Shown here piece by piece: positions 48,573 through 51,668 of a stretch of 64,000 nt of DNA. The notes under the pieces were generated by a model. That model made no database searches and was not told the origin of the DNA. It saw only the letters and a list, made by a program, of their open reading frames with translations. Within the stretch, counting starts at the first letter, position 1, and every line of letters begins with the position of its first letter. The position numbers were made by a program, and so were the translations under genes. Source of the DNA: Prochlorococcus sp. AG-363-N16 (GTDB taxonomy: Bacteria > Cyanobacteriota > Cyanobacteriia > PCC-6307 > Cyanobiaceae); assembly GCA_003280135.1 (NCBI GenBank), contig QCFW01000004.1, forward strand, positions 62,001 through 126,000. Reading direction: 5' to 3'.

Positions 48573-48621
48573 AATCTTTCTATTCATCTGCCCAGTCTTT
48601 GCATATATAGTTTCCCCTAGG

Positions 48622-48797
48622 TAATCTCACGTTTTTAATATTAGGTTTTGTTGTTTTGCCTTGTCAATTTTTTTATTGTCAACAAATGTTCTAGCTGAGG
48701 AACAATGCTCATTAAAAAAGAAAATTTGATTTATGTTGAAAAGAATTATAAGGAACTCAAGAGACGACCTTAGGAAATAGGCAAGAATCTTTCTTAG
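48622..48797 (+). pseudogene. decayed small secreted-protein gene
   Basis: FCCFALSIFLLSTNVLAEEQCSLKK then shifted frame NLIYVEKNYKELKRRP*EIGKNLS*: one frameshift plus one internal stop. Confidence 0.5.
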
Positions 48798-48815
48798 AGA
48801 TAAATTTGTATATTT

Positions 48816-49790
48816 TTATTTAATATTTAAACTGTATAAATCAAAGTATAAAGATAGTGCCTTATCACTTATTTTGCTGTCAATATCTAATGAGAAGTCT
48901 TTTTTTGATTCTTTAAACTCAAAATCATATATTTCTTCAACTTTTAATATTTTCTGAATCTCAACCCAATAGTCTTTTGATGAGCAAAGTTTTTCGTAAC
49001 AAATAAAGTGTAGATTTTGTTTGTCTTTTAGTAATTGAAAGACTTTTTTGTAGGTTAGGTACCATTGTTCAATCCAATGATTAATTTCTAAATCATTATT
49101 ATATGTTAAGTTATTATTTTGTATAGGAATATAATTTGGACCGAATTCTGTGTGTCCAATCCACCTCATATATTTAGATATGAAATGATCATTTGTAGAC
49201 TCTTCAATGAATTTCCTATGTTGTCTTAGTAAAGAGTATGAATGTTGGATTGGTTCTCTAAATGGAACAAGTATCTTTGAATTAGTGAAAATCGAAGAAA
49301 TTAATTCAAGTCTTCTGATGTTTTGATTGTTTTTACTAAGATATCTATTTTTATTATACTTTTGCATAATACTTTTTACGTAAATTCTAAATTTTTCTTC
49401 TAATTCTTCTTCGCAAAGATCAGAAAAAGTTTTCCAAAATACTTCTTCAAATGCCTCTGGAGAGCCTGTAGAGATTTTAATACCGTCTCCATGAGCTCTT
49501 TCCTTCATATCTAAACTCTTGCTCTTGATGGAGATTTTTGACCATAGATTTGGTGCTAGAACAAATGGCATATCTTCATAAGTCAGAGATGCGAAAAGCT
49601 TTGAACTATGAAGTGCATTTAATAAGATAGTTGTACCTGAACGTGCTAGTCCCGTAATAAAAATATAATCATCACATTCACTTATAGAAGGCAAAAATGT
49701 ACTTTCAAAATCAAAAGTAACTTCTCGCATCAATTGTGATGAAAGTGCAAATTGATGTAACTTCTGCTCCAGCCACGTATAGTTATTCAT
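48816..49790 (-). CDS. sulfotransferase-family protein
   Basis: DDYIFITGLARSGTTILLNALHSSKLFASLTYEDMPFVL (PAPS 5'-phosphate loop-like), KILVPFREPIQHSYSLLRQH. Confidence 0.85.
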   Translation of the reverse strand: MNNYTWLEQKLHQFALSSQLMREVTFDFESTFLPSISECDDYIFITGLARSGTTILLNALHSSKLFASLTYEDMPFVLAPNLWSKISIKSKSLDMKERAHGDGIKISTGSPEAFEEVFWKTFSDLCEEELEEKFRIYVKSIMQKYNKNRYLSKNNQNIRRLELISSIFTNSKILVPFREPIQHSYSLLRQHRKFIEESTNDHFISKYMRWIGHTEFGPNYIPIQNNNLTYNNDLEINHWIEQWYLTYKKVFQLLKDKQNLHFICYEKLCSSKDYWVEIQKILKVEEIYDFEFKESKKDFSLDIDSKISDKALSLYFDLYSLNIK

Positions 49791-50143
49791 CTTATGATTA
49801 ATTTCCTAAGATATACATATGTAAATCCAAAAAACATACATTCAATTATGCCTATAGAAGAAAATAGAAACGAGAGAAGACCAACAAATAAATAATCGGC
49901 AATAACGAAAATCAACATAAGAAAGAATATTATTAATAACATTTGCATTGAATACTTAAACATCTGTATGGAATATGCTGGAATGATATTTTCTTTCCAA
50001 TGGTCACTAATATTTTTATTGCCTATAATATATGTTGCTTTCTTGCTCGCTTTAATTAAAGAATAGACTAAGTATAGGTAATTGGACCTGATCAATATTT
50101 CTACAGAGAGAAAACAAAGAAACATAACAATAAAATGATTCAT
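49787..50143 (-). CDS. small multi-TM protein, function unknown
   Basis: ATGA overlaps with both neighbours; 118 aa, TM-rich. Confidence 0.7.
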   Translation of the reverse strand: MNHFIVMFLCFLSVEILIRSNYLYLVYSLIKASKKATYIIGNKNISDHWKENIIPAYSIQMFKYSMQMLLIIFFLMLIFVIADYLFVGLLSFLFSSIGIIECMFFGFTYVYLRKLIIR

Positions 50144-50367
50144 TTCCTTGTATTATTTTCATTCCTAGTTAATACCTTTTTCTTTCGTTTCTTATTTTTA
50201 AAAGCACGTTTGATTGGATAATATAAAATACCCCATAATCCTAAGAAGAATGCTGCAAAAATTCCAAAAATAGCAGCAATAACTCCACCACCCATTCCAG
50301 GGCCTATATATGAAAATAGTAGAGGTGCTTTCAAAAAGCTAAATAAAAGCATAATTTCTTCATTCAT
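50140..50367 (-). CDS. small membrane protein with YIGPGMGGGVIAA motif
   Basis: 75 aa; glycine-rich TM segments followed by basic tail KRAFKNKKRKKKV; ATGA-coupled. Confidence 0.75.
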   Translation of the reverse strand: MNEEIMLLFSFLKAPLLFSYIGPGMGGGVIAAIFGIFAAFFLGLWGILYYPIKRAFKNKKRKKKVLTRNENNTRK

Positions 50368-50572
50368 TACATTTACATCTTGTTGCCAAGAAATTCTTTA
50401 CGATTTGAATGTCTTCATCGGTTTGTAAAACTCTGGACCATCCAAGCTGAAAAATAATACCATTGTTTGAACGATTAACATATGTCCATCTTAATGACCC
50501 ATCTGTGTCAAAACAAAGTATTCTTCCAAAAATTTGTTCTTCTATAAAAAGATCTTCATACAAGGGACTCAC
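50360..50572 (-). pseudogene. C-terminal remnant of an ASST-like gene, paralogue of 47205..48572
   Basis: 36 of 64 aligned residues identical by hand count to the C-terminus of the 455-aa ASST-like ORF (DLFIEEQIFGRILCFDTDGSLRWT...GWSRVLQTDEDIQIVKNFL). Confidence 0.8.
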
Positions 50573-50730
50573 TTATCCAAGAACTGGGAGCTGACTTTGC
50601 TAGGTCCATCACCATTTCGGAAACTCTTCGCTTTCCTTCAACCATGTTTATTACTGTAAACGTCAGTGCATGTGAAACCGAACAATTGTTAATGCTTTCA
50701 GAGTCAAAGGTATTACCCCTAAACAGACAT
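50556..50730 (-). pseudogene. coding-like fragment GNTFDSESINNCSVSHALTFTVINMVEGKRRVSEMVMDLAKSAPSSWISESLV*
   Basis: 58-codon open frame with protein-like composition; only an internal ATG at 50645; overlaps the ASST remnant. Confidence 0.4.
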
Positions 50731-50906
50731 TAGATAACGGGAGATGTATTTAGTTACCGCTCCAGGCAGCTTATCAATATTGATACTCCAATTCAATAAT
50801 CTAAGCATTGTGGTTTATTTCTATGAACAAATAAATTGCAATTAATACCTCCACTAGATCTTTTCGTCGGTTTTGAATTGTAATATTTAATTGTTCTGCT
50901 AACTCA

Positions 50907-51345
50907 TTAAGGAAAATTAGGTTCAGGTGGATAACCTTCAACACCAGTTGAATAACAAAAATGATTTTCATATAACCTATTAACCTCCTCTTTGATATCA
51001 GCCTAAGGAGTTTTTGAGTACCCTCCAGTAATAAGAAGTCCAGCTAAGCTTGTTTGCCCTGCTAAATTTATCTCGACTCTTCTTTGTAATGTTTTGCAAT
51101 TGATGCTCATTTTTCCTTCCCATGGTATTTGGTCTTTAGTATTAGCTTTTTTGACCTCTCTTTTTACCCAAAAACGAATAATATCTCCTTAATATCTATA
51201 TCCTCAGTATTCAATACGAATTTATTTGACTCATCATCAATTGTTATAATCCACTTTTTGTAAGCGCTTTCTGCAATCCCTGCTCAAATAGGTTAAATAA
51301 ACCCAAGAATTAAGGCAGCAAATAAAATCTTTTTTGCATCTAAGT
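50907..51345 (-). pseudogene. decayed secreted-protein gene
   Basis: KKILFAALILGFI*PI*AGIAESAYKKWIITIDDESNKFVLNTEDIDIKEILFVFG, then shifted IRFWVKREVKKANTKDQIPWEGKMSINCKTLQRRVEINLAGQTSLAGLLITGGYSKTP*ADIKEEVNRLYENHFCYSTGVEGYPPEPNFP*. Confidence 0.7.
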
Positions 51346-51668
51346 AATTTACATTGTTAGCTAATGTGGAGATCTTTTATTTGTAGAAATATAAGTTAGA
51401 TATTTGTCTTTCAAATCAATTAAATCTATTTAATTCCGATCAGGATCTGTGAGGTATATCTAAGTCGAATAAGTAGCTCCTTATTAATAGTTAAATATGC
51501 ACTCCAAAACCCACGAAAATAATTGACTGCGACTAGCTAAACTACTAGAAACCTATCAATAGTGGGATTCTCAACAAGAGAACCCTTGCCCTAATTATCT
51601 ATTGTAATGATAAAAAAACCACCAAAAACCCACTGTTTTAGATCAAGAATCCAGTGGGGGGAAAACTA

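Follow-up and report, generated by a model that had tools for sequence, protein, structure and literature searches.

A conserved four-gene arylsulfotransferase–sulfotransferase cassette in Prochlorococcus relatives and SAR11, a candidate sulfate relay to the cell envelope

Bacterial PAPS-independent aryl sulfotransferases have gone more than 40 years without an identified natural substrate, according to a 2026 review, which counts caprazamycin as a physiological case for one of them, Cpz4 (PMC13426309). In that pathway, Cpz8 sulfates a triketide pyrone from PAPS, and Cpz4 then moves the sulfate to the antibiotic caprazamycin (PMC6731281). By the title of a study cited in PMC11677658, the carrier, the triketide pyrone, is the product of a type III PKS. 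In AssT of Escherichia coli CFT073, the catalytic histidine is His436 (PMC13426309). Here we describe a conserved four-gene cassette that encodes an arylsulfotransferase (ASST, PF14269), a small peptide with a YxGPG motif, a membrane protein of ~118 aa, and a sulfotransferase (PF13469). It was found in a 64,000-nucleotide stretch of the Prochlorococcus sp. AG-363-N16 genome, hereafter the window. The cassette is a horizontally variable and little-noticed gene set; in one open-access literature collection, no paper paired arylsulfotransferase with Prochlorococcus, with SAR11, or with marine and Pelagibacter, and YIGPG turned up only in vaccine and epitope papers. We read the cassette, with a probability of about 0.5, as a two-enzyme relay that would pass sulfate across the inner membrane to the envelope.

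The host genome is 1.40 Mb in 42 contigs and 81.7% complete. The four minus-strand ORFs that a sequence-only reading had taken as a translationally coupled set were present in the window ORF list, overlapping by 8, 4, and 4 bp (Table 1). In 300 Markov-1 resamplings of positions 48601-50700, the largest ORF reached 75 aa in 29% of the trials, 118 aa in 1%, and 324 aa in 0%. Since 29% of the resamplings reach 75 aa, the YxGPG gene is secured not by its length alone but by its conservation. Homologues of the YxGPG peptide, the 118-aa protein, and the sulfotransferase kept their order and strand in eight other Cyanobiaceae loci, mostly with overlaps; through this conservation of genes and order, chance chaining of ORFs was rejected. 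The pN/pS values against the window copy, at synonymous sites near saturation, were 0.29-0.49 for the YxGPG gene, 0.31-0.44 for the 118-aa gene, 0.25-0.29 for the sulfotransferase, and 0.36-0.46 for the intact ASST.

Table 1 Features of the cassette locus in the window
Feature	Position	Strand	Basis or remark
Intact ASST-family protein P0004, 455 aa	47205..48572	+	PF14269; N-terminal membrane helix, then beta-propeller-like domain
PAPS-type sulfotransferase P0001, 324 aa, probably cytosolic	48816..49790	-	PF13469, PAPS-site-like motifs
118-aa all-helical membrane protein	49787..50143	-	AF2 model, helices 3-19, 22-41, 47-85, 96-116
YxGPG single-TM peptide, 75 aa, YIGPGMGGG, Lys-rich C-terminal tail	50140..50367	-	Alignments A2, A7
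C-terminal stub of former cassette ASST, 70-aa ORF, last ~64 codons	50360..50572	-	tblastn

An ASST was found in 10 of 400 Cyanobiaceae genomes, the window genome included, and all of these carried the cassette. In this sample, the YIGPG-type cassette was present in the window and six other loci (L018-L023), and a diverged YAGPG-type cassette in three (L026, L027, L039). Further loci were taken from named Prochlorococcus (L014, L015) and Pelagibacteraceae (L016, L017). Among 247 Pelagibacterales genomes, 11 had an ASST; in the neighbourhoods inspected, those of L016 and ten others, a YxGPG-type gene adjoined the ASST in 11 of 11, and a sulfotransferase was present in all but L055, whose contig breaks off there. 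L063 and the strongly diverged L064 lacked the 118-aa gene. Of 19 cassettes compared, 11 have an overlap of 4 bp between the YxGPG and 118-aa genes and six one of 8 bp; the remaining two overlap by 13 and 59 bp. The sequence-only reading had made its module depend on the small proteins occurring with ASST or sulfotransferase genes elsewhere, and every Cyanobiaceae and Pelagibacterales locus examined showed this co-occurrence. Viral carriage of the cassette was rejected, as scans of IMG/VR with the ASST and sulfotransferase profiles found no relative.

In a sample of 240 Alphaproteobacteria genomes, an ASST match was obtained in 12 and a strong YxGPG match (E<1e-18) in nine, two of which were Pelagibacterales already counted. 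The association with ASST extended to this sample, all nine strong-YxGPG genomes lying among the 12 ASST genomes (hypergeometric 3.5e-14, relatedness ignored). ASST, YxGPG, and sulfotransferase genes were near each other in five more loci (L083, L086-L089). In G850 and G880 (L144, L145), the YxGPG gene was away from the ASST, yet beside a sulfotransferase, and G688, G772, and G785 had an ASST without a YxGPG match. Among 194 Cyanobacteriota sampled, an ASST match, and a weak one, was detected in only three genomes besides the window genome; neither YxGPG nor a sulfotransferase was seen in their ~3.4-kb ASST loci. These distributions therefore mark ASST as the broader family and YxGPG as the more faithful marker. 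Genome G701 carries a cassette (L089) with a diverged ASST and a DUF3137 gene between ASST and YxGPG, together with a second, Prochlorococcus/SAR11-like ASST (L085:7176-8582) that has no cassette partners.

The sequence-only reading had proposed a coupled envelope sulfate-transfer module whose first gene is truncated. This proposal stands with regard to the module and the truncation, but the loss of the first enzyme is not borne out; because an intact ASST, absent from that reading, lies convergent next door, the window holds more than a truncated operon. The stub is a genuine ASST C-terminus, with 45-66% identity to eight other Cyanobiaceae ASST copies (closest L021 at 66%), and it still overlaps the YxGPG gene by 8 bp. 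It is only 56% identical to the intact ASST of the window, which disfavours a recent duplication there. When 14 cassette ASSTs were compared with the window by tblastn, the stub was matched over residues ~390-455 only (E down to 4e-24), and nothing that could convincingly be assigned to the other ~85% of its parent gene turned up upstream. The next ~1.1 kb, from the stub to the gene at 51654 (50573-51653), has the appearance of decayed sequence. The truncated ASST, together with the lack of any ORF of at least 60 aa in this interval in the window ORF list, would fit a decaying relic, in which the first gene is broken, the upstream sequence degraded, and the operon not a working unit in this strain. 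We think this unlikely for the window copy, whose remaining genes are intact with pN/pS of 0.25-0.49, though the divergence mostly predates the truncation; an intact ASST adjoins, and the overlaps are retained.

A comparable arrangement was observed in SAR11. Between the intact ASST of L017 and its YxGPG gene, directly preceding the latter, lies a frameshifted remnant of a second ASST, split over two frames. The pieces of this remnant show 72-76% identity to L056 and 65-81% identity to L059, and the C-terminus of the intact L017 ASST is only 34% identical to the L017 stub. L016 and L017 form their own branch, separate from other SAR11 ASSTs, in an ASST tree with many weak forks, and fall within the SAR11 group in the sulfotransferase tree. 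Judging from these sequences, L017 looks like a case in which an incoming ASST took the place of the resident one inside a retained cassette and a C-terminal stub was left. The window resembles L017, except that its intact ASST lies inverted at the opposite end; here, the resident ASST has been cut to a stub, and the diverged intact ASST, encoded on the other strand, has likely replaced it. The convergent arrangement could be a chimera of the draft assembly; ASST and sulfotransferase are also convergent in L027, which comes from a single-contig genome. The window copy probably works as a two-piece, putatively functional cassette.

P0004 matched PF14269 (Arylsulfotran_2) at E=8.3e-48 (163.7 bits, cut-off 27). 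This is the main Pfam match of the cassette ASSTs, obtained for 14 of 14, with PF05935 matched as well by only 3 of 14. His187, His188, His270, His321, Cys174, and Cys453 were invariant in 14 diverse cassette ASSTs (alignment A1), and alignment of the QHD motif to Cpz4 points to His321 as the candidate catalytic histidine, the putative counterpart of AssT His436. The AF2 model of the ASST, of moderate confidence (pLDDT 69.8), has one N-terminal helix (2-32) followed by a beta-rich domain, and on this model the protein is likely membrane-anchored with a periplasmic domain. In a Foldseek search, the two best PDB matches of the model were Cpz4 structures (9kf4, E=2.7e-11; 9kf6, 6.9e-10), and the best-matching Cpz4 structures include a reaction intermediate of the catalytic ASST. 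The ASST sequence profile retrieved the same two Cpz4 entries alone from the PDB, weakly, at E=0.07. A relay across the membrane is favoured because the ASST model best matches Cpz4, the PAPS-independent half of caprazamycin sulfation. Beta-propellers of unrelated function, including binding lipoproteins of the BtuG type, also matched the model. These matches and the E=0.07 of the profile search would suit an ASST-like propeller that is a non-catalytic binder or scaffold, the actual chemistry being left to the PAPS sulfotransferase, with a lipid, glycan, or peptide as its substrate, while the remaining three proteins would export or display the product. Four histidines and two cysteines invariant in 14 diverse homologues, and top-scoring solved structures that belong to a catalytic ASST caught, in one case, as a reaction intermediate, make such a scaffold distinctly unlikely in our view.

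For the other enzyme, P0001 matched PF13469 (Sulfotransfer_3) at 5e-11 (43.7 bits, cut-off 27), as did 14 of 14 cassette members, and its profile retrieved tyrosylprotein sulfotransferase 1 from the PDB (6e-5). P0001 has a 5'-PSB-like TGLARSGTT motif and a 3'-PB-like region, R178...S186; the P-loop-like motif GxxRxGxT, R178, and S186 are conserved in cassette sulfotransferases (alignment A4). By family score and PAPS-binding motifs, the enzyme is predicted to be a PAPS-type sulfotransferase. The sequence-only reading would have been refuted by a sulfotransferase both cytosolic and unrelated. The enzyme is probably cytosolic, because its sequence has no evident membrane segment; this agrees with a two-compartment relay and does not refute the link.

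Genes that would supply PAPS to such an enzyme were looked for in the hosts. Sat and CysC were found in G000, and among the cassette-bearing Cyanobiaceae of the sample, APS kinase was found in 10 of 10 and PF01747 ATP sulfurylase in 9 of 10, the exception being G047 (79% complete). Two further Prochlorococcus genomes had both ATP sulfurylase and APS kinase (G403) or neither (the 1.1-Mb G402). PF01747 ATP sulfurylase was found in none of the 32 Pelagibacterales genomes tested. Full-length AprA was present in 12 of 12 Pelagibacterales with the cassette versus 14 of 20 without (Fisher p=0.06), and APS-kinase-type matches, mostly short and partial, in 11 of the 12 cassette-bearing genomes. Several SAR11 strains have been described to possess AprBA, cysC, and cysQ but no complete assimilatory sulfate reduction pathway (PMC5069961). 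From this gene content, SAR11 might possibly make PAPS from sulfite by way of APS. Directly downstream of the SAR11 cassette L016 lies a gene for a 143-aa P-loop protein with a partial APS_kinase match (L016:11084-11512, 3.6e-11); short matches of this kind are present in most SAR11 genomes tested.

Neither the 118-aa protein nor the YxGPG peptide matched a Pfam or NCBIfam family at cut-off. The AF2 model of the 118-aa protein was confident and all-helical (pLDDT 90.7), and no fold match was found for it in the PDB at E<=0.001. An insertase of the Oxa1/YidC/GET1 type was suggested by the topology, but no Oxa1, YidC, EMC3, or GET1 was among the matches listed. In L083, a single 488-aa ORF encodes a domain of the 118-aa type and, after it, the sulfotransferase; in a two-sequence comparison, this domain and the free L089 protein shared 29% identity across 127 residues (7e-15). 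The fused ORF, as called, suggests that the 118-aa protein may anchor the sulfotransferase. In L086-L088, the position of the 118-aa protein is occupied by a membrane protein of ~240 aa that matched neither Pfam nor NCBIfam (L086:6601-7326, L087:6280-7002, L088:6499-7221); homology between the two was unsupported by HMMER or hhalign.

The YxGPG peptides have Tyr-x-Gly-Pro-Gly, then a hydrophobic stretch and a Lys/Arg-rich tail, with Tyr20, Gly22, Pro23, and Gly24 invariant in alignment A7. An Ala that follows a signal-peptide-like stretch stands directly before the invariant Tyr in the members examined from SAR11 (L062 excepted), from the YAGPG type, and from other Alphaproteobacteria. Several copies of the Prochlorococcus type, that of the window included, have a short leader or no such Ala, and leader cleavage is for this reason less likely in the window and some other copies of that type. 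We considered that the peptide might itself be the aryl carrier, the cleaved form exposing an N-terminal periplasmic Tyr as sulfotyrosine donor or ASST docking residue. This seems very improbable, and its main difficulty is that a cytosolic enzyme must reach the Tyr before export. Weaker relatives of YxGPG with AYLDPG or AYVDPG (L146:1519-1725, L151:1501-1749, L154:1501-1743) each adjoin a ~470-aa gene; these genes are not sulfotransferases by the cassette profile, and their visible starts look alike. The AYLDPG/AYVDPG peptides possibly belong to a wider family of small partner peptides.

In the relay as we picture it, the 118-aa protein would hold the cytosolic sulfotransferase at the membrane, where the enzyme would transfer sulfate from PAPS to a phenolic (aryl) carrier, and the two small membrane proteins would help the carrier to the periplasmic side. 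The anchored ASST would then take up the sulfate, probably on a histidine (candidate His321), and hand it on to an envelope acceptor, for which a glycan or a lipid is the likeliest candidate; family and fold point to this last step. The YxGPG peptide would be a likely partner of the ASST. Against the relay speak the PAPS supply, which is not evident in SAR11, the moderate ASST model with its matches to unrelated beta-propellers, the existence of ASST homologues without YxGPG (G688, G772, G785), and a missing carrier synthase. No aryl-carrier synthase or PKS was found in the cassettes, which hold four genes only, and the flanking genes vary between loci. The lack of a carrier-synthesis gene also suits a different arrangement, in which the two enzymes modify the same surface polymer independently and without a hand-over, the PAPS sulfotransferase acting on a lipid-linked precursor and the ASST using environmental or metabolic aryl sulfates. 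Gene content and compartments would be identical to those of the relay, and published ASSTs accept simple exogenous aryl sulfates (PMC13426309). We regard this arrangement as possible, if somewhat unlikely; the tight overlaps, the co-inheritance over large distances, and the precedent of Cpz8 and Cpz4 favour one pathway.

In Prochlorococcus relatives and SAR11, the cassette brings an ASST next to a putative producer of the ASST's sulfated donor, which opens the donor question to genetic and metabolomic tests. If the relay is real, part of the Prochlorococcus-relative and SAR11 populations would bear sulfated surface material, which could influence phage contact, grazing, or sulfur cycling.

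Among described systems, the synthesis of synechan, a cyanobacterial sulfated exopolysaccharide (PMC8205485), is a surface-sulfation system with sulfotransferases that resembles the proposed role of the cassette in general outline. With AssT and DsbL/DsbI of E. coli CFT073 the cassette probably shares a periplasmic propeller of the ASST type, a catalytic histidine, and a needed disulfide. In contrast to that system, the cassette ASST belongs mainly to PF14269 rather than PF05935, a sulfotransferase and two small membrane proteins accompany it, and no dsb gene is present. As in Cpz8/Cpz4 of Streptomyces, a PAPS-type sulfotransferase and an ASST are encoded together, the likeness to Cpz8 being drawn at the level of enzyme type. 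Unlike Cpz8 and Cpz4, which serve an antibiotic pathway, the cassette has a membrane-anchored ASST, two small membrane proteins, and a proposed role in the envelope.
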